Of a stretch of DNA of 64,000 nt, positions 18,816 through 31,626 are shown piece after piece (position 1 is the stretch's first letter; each line of letters opens with the position of its first letter). The notes beneath the pieces are model-generated. The model saw only the letters and a list, made by a program, of their open reading frames with translations. It made no database searches and had not been told where the DNA came from. The DNA comes from Saprospiraceae bacterium (GTDB lineage: Bacteria; Bacteroidota; Bacteroidia; Chitinophagales; Saprospiraceae): contig JABDMH010000024.1 in NCBI GenBank assembly GCA_013001595.1, positions 1 to 64,000 of the forward strand, given 5' to 3'. A program made the position numbers and the translations under genes.

Positions 18816-21800
18816 TTATTGCCTTGGACCCACTTTAATCCTGATCCCCTTGGTCTGTGAGGCAAATTCTGGTGCATACATGGACTGCACTGTCCCAATG
18901 CCATTCGAAAATTCTCCTTCTTGCGCCACCCTCAAGGTGTACTCCAGCACATACCTGCCCTTTGGTAGGTAGTCCACAAAAAAATCTGTATAAGTATCGG
19001 AGGTAGATTTATAATAGCCAAGGCCTGATTCCCAATGATAGCGACTGATTACACTAATCGGTTCCATTGTCCCAGCACGTTGGTCTTGAATATGGACAAA
19101 CTCCATATTTTGTTGGGTGGTTACAACGAGCTGAACAACCACTTTGTCTCCAACAACCAAATCTGTCTGTCCGATATCCACCAGCTTTCTTCCGTCTTCA
19201 TCGAGTTGTTCCAGAAACAGCTTCTTCTTTACCGTGACCGGTGTTTGATTGGCTGCCGAGACCTTATCCAGATCCTCCAAGTATTGCCAAAAGACAGACC
19301 CCCATATGGGACGCTGGCCACTGTTCTTCATCGTGACACGACCGTCGGTAGGTCGAATGGAAGAAACAGGTATTTGATGCCGCACCACTAAATTCTGCTT
19401 ACCGACAGCTTCAGATGTCAATGGCAGCGATCTCTCACCAACTACAACTTCAGGTAGTTCGCTAGTTTCCAAGAACCAGTCATTTGGTCCTGAGGCTAAG
19501 GCTCGGATAGCCGCAGTAGTAGATTTAGTACTAGACCATCGAGTAGTTCGCTTTTGATTGATTAACCAGACCTTAAGGCTTTCAACTAGGTGGTGATCAC
19601 TTTCCACTTCATCAAAAACTTCCATAAGCATGACATGCGCTTCAATCGGTGCATGATACCAATGGTGACCTTCGCTATATTTCCAGTGAGGACCCAACTC
19701 CCCATCTTCCAGCATCCGCTCACGCAATGACTTAATGATTAGTTCAACTGCACCCTCTTTATTGTTGCGATGAAAGGCTATAGCCAACAGACCCTGTTCA
19801 TAGAGAGTCCTAGTGGGCCAATGCTGTTCTGCTTGTTGAAGGTAATGGGTCCAAAGCTCCATCATTTGGTCATTAAAGTCATGATCTTTGTACAGGGATC
19901 GTGTGTATAAATAATGAATGATCATGGATGATAGTTGATCATCCTTCCGCTGAGTTGAATCTCGTTGTATCCGCTTCTTGACATTTTCAAAGTATGACCA
20001 TGCTTGTTGATCAATATACCTGATGCCATTGGTCAACATATCGTTGATTACGGGATGCGCAACAGCAGGATTCTGCTGGATTTTCCTAAGTCCTTCTAAT
20101 ACATATTGCGTAATGAACCAATTCGATCGTCCTCCTGGAAACCAACTAAATCCACCATCTGATGATTGCCTGCCGATGAGCTTAGATAGGTTGGTCGTCA
20201 TTTCATAACTCAAGCTATTTGGATCAAATAAGTGAGACAATTTGGCCATCTTAACCCGTTCTGAAATGGCGTCTTGTACCCAAGGAGTTTCATCTATGGC
20301 CGCTGACTTTAGATTTTCATCCCTTAGCAGGGGGTTGGCGCTTTTATCCGCAAGATTCCAGCCAGCAATGGTCTCTTGGATGTCCTTATGCTTAATCAAT
20401 ATTTCTTGAGCAAGAGCGCCAATCAAGTAGCGGTTCAAGATTTGCTCGGAACTTTCGTGTGGATACTCCATCACATATGGCATTGCTTGCAGGGCATACC
20501 ACGCAGGATTGGCCACCACATCAACTGCCAAATTAGTGTGCTGAATAGTTTCAGAGGAGAGACGCACTAGGTTCTCTAATTCCCTAGTTTTTTGCTTGCC
20601 CGGAGCGATAGCCATCGCGAGCGACTCTGTGACGAGTTTACGATTTTGTAGTATGATCCAGGTATCCTTTTGCGCATCCGTATATTGCTCCGAGGAGGCT
20701 TCAATGGTATATGTAATCGGATGCAAAAAATCCAGAGGTACGCTTATGGGCCATGCCACAGAGGTACTGCTTTTTGGAGCAATGTCCACCATCTGACTTG
20801 CCGCGGATCCCAACATGTAATTCAAGTCCTCTTCATTGAAAGGATTCTTAAGATGTAGACGCACTGCAGCGCTCAAGGGCTTTTCAGAGAGGTTATCAAT
20901 CTTTGACACGAATGTAAAATCATCGCCAGCCCGGAGAAAACGTGGACTATTGGGCGTAATCATTAGTTCTTTTTGACTAATCATTTTGGCTTCGTGATAG
21001 CCTACTTCAAGGTCCTGCGTATGCCCTAAAGTCATCATACGCCAGGTGGTCAAGGCGTCATTCATCTCAAATTCAAACGAAAGGTTACCCATGGAATCCG
21101 AGCGCAGCTGAGGAAAGAAAAAGGCAGTTTCGTTGAAGTTACTACGAACGCGAACAGGTTCACTATTTCTGTCCTTGACCTCCGTCCCCAAATCAATTGC
21201 TTCTTGCTCATTTTCCATCTGACCAGGTGATTCTTCCAGCGATTCATCAGCCCTCATTGCAGCTTCGGCCATTGGAGCACTGGTCTTAGTGCGGTAATGC
21301 CTACTTCCTCGCAGTCCGACTGCGCTCGCAATAGCAGGATATCTGTCAGATGGATATGGAGCATAGACCATCCATTCTCTGGCAAACAAGATGGTCCGAC
21401 TGATCCCGAAACCAAATCTGCGTTCTTGCAAAGACGAATGGTGCGTGGGATAGAACTGATAAGTCCATTGGTGTGGTACAAACTGGTCTAATGAGGCATC
21501 GTACATACCAACCAGTAGTTCCGTCCACAACTTCTGGCTATGGTCACTGTCAATGGTGAGTCTTAATTTCTCTGTAGCTCCCGGCCTGGTCTTGTCACGG
21601 AAATTATAGTAGGTGATCTTCAGGTCTTTATGGGACCATGGCACCATAACGTGTATCTTCTTCTGCACTACTCTATTAGCTACACCCATTACGACATGAA
21701 TGGTAAATCCACCAAGGTCAGCGGTAGTAACAGGCACCTGCAATTGAGTCCAACCATTAGCCTCTATCCAACTCCCAGTCTCTAGATTTCCCTGTCTTTC

Positions 21801-24800
21801 GATCTGCCAAAAAATCTTTCCCTCAATCGCAGTCGCTATAGGAATCAACAACTCAGAACCCGGTGAGGATGTTAGGCTCTGTTGTGGTAAAAATAACATT
21901 TCATCTTTGGGTACCTCCGAAGAACCCGGCTCGTAAATGGTAGTACTGGTGGTTACGGATGATGATCCCTGCTCATTGCTGGCCTCTACGACAAAGCGGT
22001 AGTGGCCGGCCTCCAGCAAGTCATCAAGAGCAAGTTGAATCGAACCTTTACTATCGAAGGGCAACTCTTTTATCACACGAATCACTGGCCAATTTGCGGG
22101 ATCACTGTCTTGATGATGATAGTTGGGAAATAAGGAATTCATCGAATCTAGGGAGAGTCGCGTTTTGTCAGGCATTTGCCATCGACGATCTTTTTTCCAT
22201 TTAGCAGGTCCCTGTATGCGTATGATCTTCAATGATCCATTTACGGCAACGGGCTCGTTGACAAAGTTCAATGTTGAGATCTCGATTTCACGAAGGCTGT
22301 CACTTTGAAAATGGTTGGACATCGGAATCCGGATATGAAATGGATCTTCACCCAAATTGAGATGAAGTGTTTGAGTGTGAGTTTCACCATTCACATCGGT
22401 GACATCGGCGGTCACCTCATAAAGATACATCGGCCTTATCCAGGGGTGCGTTGGCAATGCTTCATTTTGGGTTGGAAAAGAGAATTCAAATTGACCATCC
22501 GCATTTAATTGAACTTCACCATTTGCCACTTCTTCATCTGGTTCTTGAGGTAGCGGCCATCCACGACCATAGTGAAAGTACCGCATAGTAGCCTTTCTAA
22601 CCACCCGATATTGCACAGTCGCAGTGCCGAGTGATACTCCGGCATAGCTAGTCGCCGTCCCAGTAAGATCCACCGTGTCGCCGAGAATCAGTGCAGCACT
22701 CGGTTGATTAAGTTCGACAAAAAAAGTTGGTCGCTTATAGGCTTCCACTTGTATTAATTGATGGCTATTATCCAGGTTATTACTGAGCCTAAATCCACCT
22801 TTCAGGCCATCTTGCGGTAGTGTGAAGCTACCCGCAATCGATCCATAATCATTGGTCCTCAGATTATTGGAAGAAATCTCTTGTCCATTGGCATCTATCA
22901 GTGAAATTCTAATATCCTTGCCCTGAATGATTGCAGGCCGTCCCCGTTCACCCTTCACAATTGCTATTCCTTTATAGTAGATGGTCTGGCCTGGACGATA
23001 GATTGATCTGTCTGTAAATAGCTGTAGATGCTGCCCTTTGAAATTAGCAGGTCTCATCGGATAATTATAGAGATGATCGATCCACAATTGATCTTTTCCA
23101 TGCTTGATCAATAAGCCATACCCTCTTCTTAACACATTGGCTTTGGGTATCTGGGCCTCGCCAAGAGAATCCGTCACGGCATTCCCTTTCTTCTTCAATA
23201 CTCTTTGACCATTTTCCTGATCATATTGATACCAAGTGACGATGGCCTGACTAATCGGGCTACCATCCAATCGATCAAAGCAGCGAATTTTCGAGGTGCC
23301 GGGATACTTCTGTTCGATTACCGAAATTCTTGATACGACAAATTTAGCTACTGCTACTGCAGATCCATTCATTGATAGGTCATCCTGGGTGCCAACCAGG
23401 ACGGCATAGGATCCATTGTCCTGGCCAGGAATGGCAAATTCTGTCTTATGCGCTCGAAAATCATCGACTCCCGGACAATCAATTTCGTGTTCATAGATGA
23501 CCGGCATCTTGGTTAGTCGAGCAAGTGCATCTTCATCTCTTTCATTGAACAAATTTGACCTTTGTTGATCATTCTCGGGTAGTCTAGCGACCTTGATGAA
23601 AACCCGTTCAACATTACGATATGAAAGTAGAACAAGAGATGATTCGTCAGGTAAAACCACTTCCTCGATGCGTACATCAAGTGACTTTGCCTCAATGCCA
23701 GCAATCACTCCCTTACATAAGACAGCCCCATAACTTTCAGGATACTGGTCGATTGCATCTAGGCATTGCGCTCGAATTCCCTTTAACAGATCAGGTTTAT
23801 GACCATCATCCTTAGTGAGCATATGCCGTGCTATTACGGCGGTTATGTGTGCATGCGCTGCACTTCCCTCATACTTAGTATGGAGCTGCTGCAAGGCTGA
23901 CATGTAAAGGCTATCCCGATGCGTGGAGATACTCCGCTCATAGACAGTCTGCAACCTCTGCAAGTCCCAATCCACAAGTACGGAGGGATCATCGTCTGCT
24001 TGGTGAAACAGCAATACTTCTTGAAAAATCTTTAGTGCCCATACAATTGGGTTCCGGCTATGGTCTCCTTCAATCGGTAGTGTAGCAAATGATGAGATTG
24101 GCGAAAAGTATGCAGGATTGTCTACCCTAAACTTATTGAGCGGTTGCGGAAGTGGCAGTCTGAGTTGACTGAAGTATAACATAGCTCGACGTGCCAGCAA
24201 GTCATAGATTACTTCATAAAAAGGTGGTGTGGCTGAGGAAATTATCAATTTCGAGAAATCTGCCAAGGGTATTGCTTGTGTCTCACTAACTATTGACTTC
24301 AGATAAGCACTATCTGCACGGTTTAAGAGTGCCTGACGTGATAAATCTTCGAGCCGCCCGAGCACTTCGGTATCCGCTTCATCATTAGGTAGTCTCCAAG
24401 CATTTTCTTGTGCATAGCGATGGTATAATTCCCCAATTCTTGAGTACAGTAAAGCCTCGACACCCACTTGCTCGCCATTCAGTTCTTGTTTTAGGACTGC
24501 TAGACTACTTTCCAACCCATTTTCATTAAGTATTCCCGCAAGGTCCGCTTGGAGAAAGGTGGCACGTACAAAATCTGACGCTCGCTGATCCAAGAGAGCA
24601 TGCTTCTTAATTTGCATGACAAGATCCAAAGTGCTTTTGGGTTGGTTTATTTTCATCAAAGAGTCAACCTGCCTCCATTGGCTCAAATAATCGAAATCAC
24701 TCAATGGTTTGTCGGTCATATCTTTGGTTGGCGTTATACAGCTCTGGATAATTCCCACCAGACAGATCAATGTCAGGACAGATCGTGTTACTCTAAAGGG

Positions 24801-24815
24801 TGTTGTGCAGAACAT
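18816..24815 (-). CDS. bacterial alpha-2-macroglobulin family lipoprotein without thioester
   Basis: 1999 residues. The N-terminus is a lipoprotein signal (VLTLICLVGIIQSC, Cys at about 26). A helical N-terminal region leads to MG1/MG2-type beta domains (for example TDRSIYRPGQTIYYKG, the hallmark of the MG2 region), the bait and alpha-2-macroglobulin central segment (FFFPQLRSDSMGNLSFEFEMNDALTTWRMM) and a C-terminal alpha-toroid. The conserved C-terminal YAPEFA motif is present. At the thioester position, where many relatives have CxEQ, this protein reads PHESSEQ (about residue 1450): the Cys is Ser, so no thioester can form. It is probably anchored to the periplasmic side or surface and traps or senses proteases mechanically. 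No pbpC partner gene is adjacent. ATG start at 24815. Confidence 0.93.
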   Translation of the reverse strand: MFCTTPFRVTRSVLTLICLVGIIQSCITPTKDMTDKPLSDFDYLSQWRQVDSLMKINQPKSTLDLVMQIKKHALLDQRASDFVRATFLQADLAGILNENGLESSLAVLKQELNGEQVGVEALLYSRIGELYHRYAQENAWRLPNDEADTEVLGRLEDLSRQALLNRADSAYLKSIVSETQAIPLADFSKLIISSATPPFYEVIYDLLARRAMLYFSQLRLPLPQPLNKFRVDNPAYFSPISSFATLPIEGDHSRNPIVWALKIFQEVLLFHQADDDPSVLVDWDLQRLQTVYERSISTHRDSLYMSALQQLHTKYEGSAAHAHITAVIARHMLTKDDGHKPDLLKGIRAQCLDAIDQYPESYGAVLCKGVIAGIEAKSLDVRIEEVVLPDESSLVLLSYRNVERVFIKVARLPENDQQRSNLFNERDEDALARLTKMPVIYEHEIDCPGVDDFRAHKTEFAIPGQDNGSYAVLVGTQDDLSMNGSAVAVAKFVVSRISVIEQKYPGTSKIRCFDRLDGSPISQAIVTWYQYDQENGQRVLKKKGNAVTDSLGEAQIPKANVLRRGYGLLIKHGKDQLWIDHLYNYPMRPANFKGQHLQLFTDRSIYRPGQTIYYKGIAIVKGERGRPAIIQGKDIRISLIDANGQEISSNNLRTNDYGSIAGSFTLPQDGLKGGFRLSNNLDNSHQLIQVEAYKRPTFFVELNQPSAALILGDTVDLTGTATSYAGVSLGTATVQYRVVRKATMRYFHYGRGWPLPQEPDEEVANGEVQLNADGQFEFSFPTQNEALPTHPWIRPMYLYEVTADVTDVNGETHTQTLHLNLGEDPFHIRIPMSNHFQSDSLREIEISTLNFVNEPVAVNGSLKIIRIQGPAKWKKDRRWQMPDKTRLSLDSMNSLFPNYHHQDSDPANWPVIRVIKELPFDSKGSIQLALDDLLEAGHYRFVVEASNEQGSSSVTTSTTIYEPGSSEVPKDEMLFLPQQSLTSSPGSELLIPIATAIEGKIFWQIERQGNLETGSWIEANGWTQLQVPVTTADLGGFTIHVVMGVANRVVQKKIHVMVPWSHKDLKITYYNFRDKTRPGATEKLRLTIDSDHSQKLWTELLVGMYDASLDQFVPHQWTYQFYPTHHSSLQERRFGFGISRTILFAREWMVYAPYPSDRYPAIASAVGLRGSRHYRTKTSAPMAEAAMRADESLEESPGQMENEQEAIDLGTEVKDRNSEPVRVRSNFNETAFFFPQLRSDSMGNLSFEFEMNDALTTWRMMTLGHTQDLEVGYHEAKMISQKELMITPNSPRFLRAGDDFTFVSKIDNLSEKPLSAAVRLHLKNPFNEEDLNYMLGSAASQMVDIAPKSSTSVAWPISVPLDFLHPITYTIEASSEQYTDAQKDTWIILQNRKLVTESLAMAIAPGKQKTRELENLVRLSSETIQHTNLAVDVVANPAWYALQAMPYVMEYPHESSEQILNRYLIGALAQEILIKHKDIQETIAGWNLADKSANPLLRDENLKSAAIDETPWVQDAISERVKMAKLSHLFDPNSLSYEMTTNLSKLIGRQSSDGGFSWFPGGRSNWFITQYVLEGLRKIQQNPAVAHPVINDMLTNGIRYIDQQAWSYFENVKKRIQRDSTQRKDDQLSSMIIHYLYTRSLYKDHDFNDQMMELWTHYLQQAEQHWPTRTLYEQGLLAIAFHRNNKEGAVELIIKSLRERMLEDGELGPHWKYSEGHHWYHAPIEAHVMLMEVFDEVESDHHLVESLKVWLINQKRTTRWSSTKSTTAAIRALASGPNDWFLETSELPEVVVGERSLPLTSEAVGKQNLVVRHQIPVSSIRPTDGRVTMKNSGQRPIWGSVFWQYLEDLDKVSAANQTPVTVKKKLFLEQLDEDGRKLVDIGQTDLVVGDKVVVQLVVTTQQNMEFVHIQDQRAGTMEPISVISRYHWESGLGYYKSTSDTYTDFFVDYLPKGRYVLEYTLRVAQEGEFSNGIGTVQSMYAPEFASQTKGIRIKVGPRQ

Positions 24816-28924: not shown

Positions 28925-30919
28925 ATGAAGATACATCATAGACTCGAAGACCTTCCAACATTTCGCAACGCGGTGATAACCTTCGGATCGTTTGATGGTG
29001 TACACCACGGACATGGAGAATTGGTGGAGTTGATGAAGTCAGAGGCGGCCTCCATCGATGGAGAAACAGTCGTAGTGACATTTGAGCCTCATCCCCGACA
29101 AATTATATATCCTGGTGCCAAAGATTTAAAATTGCTGAGTAGCAAGGATGAAAAGATTCATCTGTTTAAGAATCATGAAATAGATCACCTTGTTTTTTGT
29201 CCATTTACCATCGAGTTTTCTCAAATCAGTGCTGACGAATACATCACAAATTTTATTATCGATCGATTTCATCCCAAATTGATCGTCATCGGATATGACC
29301 ATCGATTCGGGCAAAATCGCACAGGTAATATCGACTTTCTCAAGAGCTACGAAGCATCAGGTGGATTTAAGGTAATTGAGTTGGCTGCACAGATGTCAGA
29401 GCGGATAAAGGTAAGCAGTACTAAGATCCGAAATTATCTGTCGGATGGTCAGATTGAGCTGGCCAATAAATTGCTTGGCCACCCTTATGTGATCGGTGGT
29501 AAAGTAATACGGGGTAAGCAAATTGGGGAACAATTAGGTTACCCCACTGCCAATCTCCGCTTCGACGCTACACTAAAGCTTGTCCCTCCCCAAGGCATCT
29601 ACGCAGTTCATATTCATATCGGAGCAGAAGAGTATGAAGGTATGCTCTACATTGGCAATCGGCCTAGTGTTGCTTCCGATGGTAAGCAGTCTGTGGAAGT
29701 GAATATTTTCAACTTTAACGAGGATATTTATGGTGAATACATTTTGGTAGAATTACTAAAATTCATGCGCGAAGATAAGGTCTTTAAAAACTTAGAACTT
29801 CTGCGCTTACAGCTTGATGAGGATAAACGTGGAGTTTTAGACTTTTTTCAAAATAATGAAGGTCCCAATTCTGTAGCTGTGGTGATTCTAAATTATAATG
29901 GATTACACCATCTACAAAAGCACCTTTCGTCTGTCATCAGACATACTACAGCCAAGATTATTGTAGCTGACAATGGATCTACCGATGAATCTGTGGTCTG
30001 GCTCAAAGAAAACCACCCGGACATAGAGCTGATCGTTTTGCCCACCAATTATGGTTTTGCCGAAGGATACAATCAGGCAATTCGGAAAGTCCATGCAACC
30101 TACGTGGTCCTACTCAACTCAGATGTGGAGGTCACCAGGCAATGGTTAGAACCCATGATTAGTACTCTGAAGTCGAATAAACAGATTGGAGCGATCCAAC
30201 CCAAGGTCAAATCATTTGAAAACAAGTCCAATTTTGAATATGCTGGAGCATGTGGAGGGCTGATGGACACGCTGGGCTATCCATTTTGCCAGGGTCGTAT
30301 TCTCTCAGAAGTTGAACAGGATTTTGGTCAATACGATAAGGCAAGAGAGGTTTTCTGGGCTACAGGTGCAGCCATGTCCATTCGGCGCAAAGTGTTTATG
30401 GACTTTGGTGGATTTGATGGTTCCTTCTTTGCTCATATGGAAGAAATTGACTTGTGTTGGCGTATGAAGCAAGCAGGATATCAAATCTGGACGCAACCCG
30501 ATTCAGTCATCTATCATCAGGGCGGTGGCACACTAAGTTACACCAGTCCGAGAAAGACATATTTGAACTTTCGCAATGGGATGTCTTTGCTCATAAAGAA
30601 TGAAAAAGGCCTCAAACTACTTTGGCTCTTTCCTGTAAGGCTTGCCCTGGATCTATTGGCCGGTTTACGATTCATAATCGTAGCAGAATGGAAAAATGCT
30701 TGGGCGGTCGTCAAGGCCATGCTATATACCTTCCGGCATTTTTTTTCTACCTGGAAAAAAAGGAAGCACATTCTTGCCTTGACCCAAAAACTCTCTATTG
30801 GTGAAGACAACACTAATTCCGGAAGATACCAAGGAAGTATCGTGTGGGAATTCTTCCTTCTTGGTAAAAAGAAATACCATGACCTACGCAAAGTTCCTTC
30901 CTCCAAGCAAATCTCATGA
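28925..30919 (+). CDS. ribF: fusion: RibF riboflavin kinase/FAD synthetase + GT2 glycosyltransferase
   Basis: 664 residues in one uninterrupted frame. Residues 1-311 are a complete RibF: the nucleotidylyltransferase site FGSFDGVHHGH (20-30), the flavokinase motif GYPTANLRF (PTAN at about 206-209), GNRPSV, and the acidic VNIFNFNEDIYGEYI segment. This half makes FMN from riboflavin and FAD from FMN. From about residue 316 a family 2 glycosyltransferase begins (VAVVILNYNGLHHL), with DNGSTDES (about 349), NYGFAEGYNQAI and the LLNSDVE metal/donor site, then two hydrophobic patches near the C-terminus (LLWLFPVRLALDLLAGLRFIIV). No Met lies at the junction. The gene overlaps the downstream RluA-type gene by 4 bp (ATGA). 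RibF is normally a separate protein of about 310 residues, so the fusion is unusual. ATG start at 28925. Confidence 0.88.
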   Translation: MKIHHRLEDLPTFRNAVITFGSFDGVHHGHGELVELMKSEAASIDGETVVVTFEPHPRQIIYPGAKDLKLLSSKDEKIHLFKNHEIDHLVFCPFTIEFSQISADEYITNFIIDRFHPKLIVIGYDHRFGQNRTGNIDFLKSYEASGGFKVIELAAQMSERIKVSSTKIRNYLSDGQIELANKLLGHPYVIGGKVIRGKQIGEQLGYPTANLRFDATLKLVPPQGIYAVHIHIGAEEYEGMLYIGNRPSVASDGKQSVEVNIFNFNEDIYGEYILVELLKFMREDKVFKNLELLRLQLDEDKRGVLDFFQNNEGPNSVAVVILNYNGLHHLQKHLSSVIRHTTAKIIVADNGSTDESVVWLKENHPDIELIVLPTNYGFAEGYNQAIRKVHATYVVLLNSDVEVTRQWLEPMISTLKSNKQIGAIQPKVKSFENKSNFEYAGACGGLMDTLGYPFCQGRILSEVEQDFGQYDKAREVFWATGAAMSIRRKVFMDFGGFDGSFFAHMEEIDLCWRMKQAGYQIWTQPDSVIYHQGGGTLSYTSPRKTYLNFRNGMSLLIKNEKGLKLLWLFPVRLALDLLAGLRFIIVAEWKNAWAVVKAMLYTFRHFFSTWKKRKHILALTQKLSIGEDNTNSGRYQGSIVWEFFLLGKKKYHDLRKVPSSKQIS

Positions 30920-31626
30920 GACTACAGAATGAGGTGATCTATAGTGATCAAAACGTCATCATTGTGAATAAACCAGCGGGTGTTTTGTCCGTTCCAGATA
31001 GGTACAACAGTAGTCTCAGAAATGTATACAGCTGGATAACCGGCATTTACGATGATGCGAGACCCGTTCATAGGCTTGATCGATATACCAGCGGAATACT
31101 GTGCTTTGCCCGTGGCCAGCAAGCCTTCAAGCATTTCTCCGAGGCATTTGAAAAGCGAACTGTTCAAAAGTATTATCATGCCATTGTACTTGGTGTCCCA
31201 TCTTCCAATGCTAGCTTTATCGATAAGTCGCTCGAAAAACTCAACCGGCAAAATCAAGTGATCATTAGTAAGCGGGGAAAAGCAGCACAAACCAATTACA
31301 CTGTGTTAGAGACATATGGTAGCTTCGCATTACTTCATCTACAAATTCTTACTGGTCGTACACACCAGATTCGCGTTCATTTACAATCTATAGGGCATCC
31401 CCTCCTCGTGGATCCCGTTTATGGAGGCAAAGACGAATTTCTGCTCTCAGAAATTAAACCAACCTATAAAAAGCGCGACCAAGAACGCCCCTTGCTCAAG
31501 CGTACGCCACTGCATGCGTCAAAAATCGTCTTACCATTGCCTGATGGCAATAGTCTGACGATTGAAGCCCCTCTTCCAAAAGACATGCGGGCAGTCATCC
31601 GGCAAATGCAGCTCCTGAAAGGATAG
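30916..31626 (+). CDS. RluA-family pseudouridine synthase
   Basis: 236 residues. Isomerises uridine to pseudouridine in structured RNA (rRNA or tRNA). Seen: VIYSDQNVIIVNKPAGVLSVP at the N-terminus, the catalytic motif PVHRLDRYTSG with Asp55, YHAIVLG, and the GRTHQIRVHLQSIGHPLLVDPVYGG block. No S4 RNA-binding domain, so it is the short RluA/RluC-like form; the target position is unknown. The start codon overlaps the stop of the RibF-GT2 gene in an ATGA, pointing to coupled translation. Confidence 0.94.
   Translation: MRLQNEVIYSDQNVIIVNKPAGVLSVPDRYNSSLRNVYSWITGIYDDARPVHRLDRYTSGILCFARGQQAFKHFSEAFEKRTVQKYYHAIVLGVPSSNASFIDKSLEKLNRQNQVIISKRGKAAQTNYTVLETYGSFALLHLQILTGRTHQIRVHLQSIGHPLLVDPVYGGKDEFLLSEIKPTYKKRDQERPLLKRTPLHASKIVLPLPDGNSLTIEAPLPKDMRAVIRQMQLLKG

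Follow-up and report, generated by a model that had tools for sequence, protein, structure and literature searches.

The question raised by this locus is whether RibF, an FAD synthetase, is genuinely encoded in one polypeptide with a family GT2 glycosyltransferase and, if so, how the two came to be joined and how the joint is read. The window, by which we mean the whole stretch of 64,000 nucleotides that was analysed, comes from a Saprospiraceae genome of 6.2 Mb (161 contigs, 99.1% complete). An earlier note on this DNA had described a complete RibF running in-frame into a GT2 domain, and this description is borne out by one 664-codon ORF that is recognised by Pfam and by the ribF model TIGR00083. 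The features of the locus are:

28925..30919, + strand: ribF–GT2 fusion gene, a single open ORF from ATG to TGA, 664 codons (664 aa)
28964..29422, + strand: FMN adenylyltransferase domain, residues 14-166 (FAD_syn, Pfam PF06574)
29474..29836, + strand: riboflavin kinase domain, residues 184-304 (Flavokinase, Pfam PF01687)
29840..29869, + strand: junction or linker, residues 306-315 (DFFQNNEGPN), with a T6 run at 29843-29848 and no A-run
29870..30889, + strand: GT2 glycosyltransferase domain and C-terminal helices, residues 316-655 (Pfam PF00535 and the AlphaFold model)
30916..31626, + strand: rluA-like RNA pseudouridine synthase gene, the ATG of which overlaps the TGA stop of the fusion (ATGA)

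The T6 run was also in the earlier note, as was an ATG at 29856 that meets a stop after six codons; both are seen when the sequence is read by eye. Elsewhere in the window, an ORF of 1999 aa on the reverse strand (18816-24815) resembles, by eye, bacterial alpha-2-macroglobulin-like proteins.

Domains, active sites and predicted structure

All three Pfam domains of the window protein score far above their cut-offs, with Glycos_transf_2 (PF00535) matching residues 319-492 at an E value of 1.1e-20. The NCBIfam equivalog TIGR00083 covers residues 18-308 with 240.8 bits, against a curated cut-off of 184.35. RibF proteins are marked by an HxGH-type nucleotidyltransferase motif and by the PTAN motif and catalytic Glu of the riboflavin kinase, and GT2 enzymes by a DXD-like metal site and an acidic catalytic residue. 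In an alignment of 34 fused proteins, the adenylyltransferase positions H27, H30, G123, D125 and H126, the kinase positions T208, A209, N210 and E258 (P207 nearly so) and the GT2 positions N398, D400, E506, E507, D509 and W512 are invariant, while the linker varies; the GT2 metal site of the fused proteins reads NxD, not DXD. A search of the window's own genome at E <= 0.001 returns the fusion as its single RibF match, the second match being a distant GT2 paralogue of 31% identity. Since this search gave no second RibF, the RibF half of the fusion is probably active and probably carries out FMN and FAD synthesis. The activities of the two halves, and the acceptor of the GT2 half, are putative assignments.

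The AlphaFold model of the window protein (mean pLDDT 88.4, pTM 0.57) predicts two well-folded parts, the relative placement of which is not firm; with this pTM, the model supports no fixed contact between the RibF and GT2 halves. When the whole two-domain model was used as the Foldseek query, the first 22 rows were RibF-type structures, followed later by GlfT2 and GalNAc-transferase structures at E values of about 1e-15 to 1e-14, which points to a GT-A fold. The RibF/FAD synthetase structures 2x0k, 1mrz and 3op1 (the top match, deposited under 'Macrolide-efflux Protein SP_1110'), which lead the matches in sequence and fold, cover both RibF domains at full length in chains of 293-338 residues, whereas the window protein adds a GT2 in the same chain.

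Distribution of the fusion

In a search of 60 genomes that included the window's, each of the five congeneric genomes covered (G001-G005) has the same in-frame fusion, at 59-64% identity. In two of them (G001 and G002, loci L006 and L007) a contig end cuts the gene at one side, with the junction present in both. The check on close relatives proposed earlier thus turned up no separate genes among the five genus members searched. Fused junctions also occur in nearly complete assemblies that consist of one contig (G090/L193), four contigs (G152/L134) and seven contigs (G362/L190). A sequencing or assembly error, or a recently lost stop in one genome, joining two ordinary genes is suggested by the T6 run at the joint, where one extra T would end ribF, but is ruled out for practical purposes by the five congeners, by most sampled family members and by these assemblies. 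The window ORF is a genuine gene with fused RibF and GT2, as the earlier note had favoured; no evidence against the fusion itself was found in this analysis.

The fusion extends over much of the family, with 40-64% identity to the window protein among fused family proteins. In a sample of the order (n = 298), a co-linear match at E <= 1e-135, a threshold that would overlook fusions with a long insert, was found in 78 of 87 Saprospiraceae genomes, nine being listed without one, and in none of 211 genomes of other families (a number obtained by subtraction and from the sort order of the listing). A sample of the phylum gave 5 co-linear matches in 395 genomes, all in Saprospiraceae, with one family genome listed without. 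Among 398 family genomes searched, 360 matched at E <= 1e-60. Two matches were obtained in 64 of these and a single weaker one in ten, which leaves, by subtraction, about 286 in which one co-linear match spans both halves. Eight of the ten best named hits carrying both genes are fused; the other two (L058 and L095) are split. Among 23 genomes of other families in the search of 60 genomes, both genes were listed in 21, either on separate contigs or with 9 kb or more between them. The view that RibF is normally free-standing therefore holds outside Saprospiraceae as far as sampled.

Junctions were read in 154 family genomes, including the window's; this set is not random, as two-match genomes were chosen deliberately (42 of the 64). 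Of the single-match loci, 110/112 are truly fused, while the remaining two (L017 and L192) consist of separate genes that share a frame; the co-linear-match criterion therefore slightly overcounts fusions. Of the two-match loci, 3/42 are fused with long linkers and 39/42 are split; G026, a candidate long-linker fusion, was rejected because its locus, L138, is split. Linkers of fused genes range from 10 to 78 residues, the longest being that of L173 (G410), which is fused and contains short internal repeats (TGDGGR- and RPPSTVH-like). Flags of internal stops in fusion matches proved, in the loci read, to be mostly the natural C-terminal stop. One genome, G260 (87% complete, 4% contamination), has two co-linear RibF–GT2 matches, on contigs C56 and C202, perhaps from two strains binned together.

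Judged from titles and the openings of abstracts, we found no description of a RibF–GT2 fusion among the best-matching open-access papers, and the pair is not named in the passages seen of a survey of B-vitamin fusions (PMC4921024). As far as the open-access literature shows through these parts, the fusion is an undescribed trait of much of the Saprospiraceae.

The free-standing glycosyltransferase

In other Bacteroidota the GT2 that is fused to RibF in the window is a separate gene; at most loci it aligns to almost all of the GT2 half with 45-51% identity. We examined the surroundings of 70 such non-fused loci (L060-L130), the best hits of one scan, seven of which have less than 1.2 kb of upstream sequence. 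The free GT2 is immediately preceded by a lipid A acyltransferase gene in 24/70, follows ybaB in 14/70 and follows neither in 32/70; neighbours were called by tblastn, and Pfam confirmed three of the acyltransferases and one YbaB. These neighbours hint that the free GT2 might act in sugar transfer to lipid A or LPS. Four of the GT2 records (L063, L069, L074 and L111) are titled Saccharibacteria, Verrucomicrobia, Chlorobiota and Glaciecola, reflecting misbinning, mislabelling or transfer.

The suggestion in the earlier note that the fusion ties flavin synthesis to surface glycosylation is not supported, given the freedom of the GT2 elsewhere, where it adjoins a lipid A acyltransferase gene in the proportion given above, and the occurrence of ribF and GT2 as separate neighbours within the family itself. 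We know of no pathway link between RibF and GT2, and see no biochemical reason for joining them. Co-expression, or the bringing of RibF to the membrane, are possible reasons.

Probable origin from neighbouring genes

In a FastTree phylogeny of the RibF and GT2 domains of 154 family and 10 outgroup genomes, the Saprospiraceae fall on one branch (support 94) with two clades within it (90 and 91). The outgroup is printed as not monophyletic since it falls on two branches at the three-way root. Every pair is split (18/18) in the first clade, which comprises 18 genomes of genera g80, g22, g23, g59, g94, g6, g122 and g4, and ribF and GT2 adjoin except in L149, where more than 1.3 kb lies between the genes. 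Every fusion falls in the second clade. A minimum of 13 changes between the fused and split states is needed on the tree, the direction of which is not given by the method. One locus, L155 (G150), is labelled g17 and sits far from the g17 members L021 and L219, owing to transfer, a mislabel or a weak tree.

Many of the split pairs overlap or lie close together. By manual count over 41 of them, the GT2 start overlaps the ribF stop in 17, lies at most 60 nt off in 14 more and is further away in 6. A start before the domain in the GT2 frame is an ATG in 28/41 and only a GTG or TTG in 9/41, with none in 4/41. Among the 50 family loci for which 600 nt or more of downstream sequence is available, 42 have a pseudouridine synthase gene as the next gene. 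Because split pairs adjoin or overlap and the first clade is split throughout, separate neighbouring genes are likely to be the ancestral state. Separate fusion events probably occurred more than once, re-splitting being the alternative. With at least 13 changes of state, and split neighbours throughout one clade, a single polypeptide is common in the family and is not required.

The ancestral Saprospiraceae cluster would thus have comprised adjoining ribF, GT2 and rluA genes, the first two of which often overlapped and were probably coupled in translation. Loss of the ribF stop and the GT2 start would have fused the pair, probably several times. The lost stop codon mentioned as an origin in the earlier note may come close to this, but it would have acted on adjoining, often overlapping genes, and repeatedly. 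In the window's genus, a single product of about 75 kDa is most likely, while in relatives with a run of 9-11 A at the joint, slippage of polymerase or ribosome may give free RibF and RibF–GT2 from one gene. To this explanation as a whole, a bifunctional ribF–GT2 gene derived from a cluster of neighbouring genes, with slippage possible in A-run relatives, we assign a probability of about 0.85.

A-runs at the joint in relatives

A run of A9–A11 is found at the joint in 30 of the 154 family genomes (26 fused, 4 split). The linkers contain 31 runs of at least nine A in 12.1 kb (9 A9, 21 A10 and 1 A11), whereas 301 kb of RibF and GT2 domain sequence from these genes is free of them; these counts cover 157 loci, being the 154 genomes plus four named loci (perhaps duplicates), minus L149 with its long gap. 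The window's joint has its T6 and no A>=9 run, the five congeners have no run of six or more at the joint, and 87/113 fused genes, the window's included, are without an A>=9 run. On the tree, A-runs have been gained or lost at least 20 times.

Synonymous resampling of the linkers with their own codon use predicts 9.6 linkers with A>=9, against 26/113 seen, so that chance AAA among Lys codons can be rejected as the source of the runs. This suggests that the lysines follow the A-run, although the resampling takes the linker protein as given and so is not a proof of selection. For the domains, the same procedure predicts 7.3 runs of A>=9 (never fewer than one in 200 draws), where 0 are seen. Genome-wide, A10 is not rare everywhere. 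When overlapping matches are included, its count over the ten genomes tried ranges from 4 to 145, with 14 in G322, 9 in G343, 4 in G356 and 145 in G020, itself an A-run genome. In G322, G343 and G356, 15 of the 19 other distinct A10 places lie outside sense ORFs of 200 codons, and the other 4 fall within such an ORF or at its beginning.

After a slip of one nucleotide, in whichever direction, a stop is reached in no more than 20 codons in 22/26 fused A-run genes versus 44/87 run-less ones; the longer of the two stop distances has a median of 11 versus 20 codons (Mann-Whitney p = 0.0007, uncorrected for relatedness). In the clade of g121, g21 and g2, eight genomes have a stop right after the run upon a -1 slip, which is TGA, TAA or TAG depending on the species; L040 and L045 of this clade have no A>=9 run. 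Among the split A-run genomes, the GT2 frame of L144, L155 and L165 has no ATG, GTG or TTG ahead of the domain and that of L159 has one TTG, while among the other split pairs only 1/37 (L136) is start-less. The sister species L144 and L159 share the same out-of-frame A10, which argues against assembly error.

These features recall dnaX. In the passages seen of PMC1088944 and PMC5009743, the A9 run of Thermus thermophilus dnaX causes RNA polymerase slippage that yields a short and a long product, the long one in one ORF and about half short, with nearby stops in the other frames; A10 occurs in other dnaX genes, according to the part seen of PMC3711429. Of the 26 in-frame runs, 22 have stops close by in both other frames and 4 do not, so that a slip would in most of them give a shorter product. 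The genes and products are unrelated to dnaX, however, and the window gene is without a run. A second precedent is mxiE, in which, by the same portion of PMC1088944, the long product needs slippage; similarly, the start-less GT2 frames of L144, L155 and L165 would be reachable only by a slip. Most A-run relatives thus appear to fit the dnaX scheme, and three or four species the mxiE one. The name ribF was not found in titles within the best-matching part of the open-access papers on slippage.

A possible decoding switch or tolerated runs

The fullest reading of these patterns is that a decoding switch has evolved recurrently at the ribF–GT2 joint, where slippage at A9-A11 would yield free RibF and RibF–GT2 at a set ratio, with the GT2 being slip-dependent in some species. 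We infer RNA polymerase slippage as the process, which sequence alone cannot separate from ribosomal frameshifting. The reading excludes the window gene, which has no such run, and we consider its chances evenly poised. It is weakened by the 87 run-less fused genes, by four A-run loci (L014, L015, L034 and L241) in which a +1 slip stays open for at least 35 codons, and by the abundance of A10 in G020.

An alternative that is about as likely as not holds that the fusion is near-neutral, the halves being independent and neither a joint function nor a dual product being selected; this is compatible with a real bifunctional fusion. The repeated changes between fused and split states, the varying linkers, the model's lack of a fixed domain contact and the lack of any pathway link known to us all agree with it. 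Against this, the fusion has been maintained over much of the family despite the sequence divergence noted above, and near-neutrality alone accounts neither for the peak at A10 nor for GT2 frames that have no start.

The main rival to slippage is neutral tolerance: as RibF stays intact when a slip occurs in the linker, A-runs may simply be tolerated at this place. Such sparing of RibF would also explain the absence of A-runs from the domains, but it explains the A10 length peak and the start-less GT2 frames less well than the decoding switch does.

It is improbable that the A-runs are a phase-variation switch working through replication slippage. Homopolymers are mutable, and the four split A-run genomes are out of frame; yet 26/30 are in frame, where free drift would presumably leave about a third, and two members of genus g121, L034 with A9 and L042 with A10, differ, by eye, by a base substitution that keeps the frame. 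Slightly less probable still is that the runs provide A-rich surroundings for a start codon at which a free GT2 is initiated internally. Although an in-frame ATG follows the run in L014, L015, L042 and L241, 22/26 fused A-run genes have no such ATG, 17/26 have no ATG, GTG or TTG, and an in-frame linker ATG is present in only 19/113 fused genes overall.

Significance

In a large part of the Saprospiraceae, the fusion joins a cofactor enzyme with one that is unrelated to it and probably envelope-related; in the window's genome, no RibF other than the fused one was found. A length of about 660 residues should be expected when RibF is annotated in this family. Living relatives show separate neighbours, overlaps, start-less frames behind an A-run and full fusions, and the path from operon to fusion is thus testable. 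If the A-runs act as in dnaX, slippage would be a bridge from split to fused genes, and if the decoding switch is true, ribF–GT2 would be a further cellular gene that uses dnaX-like slippage.
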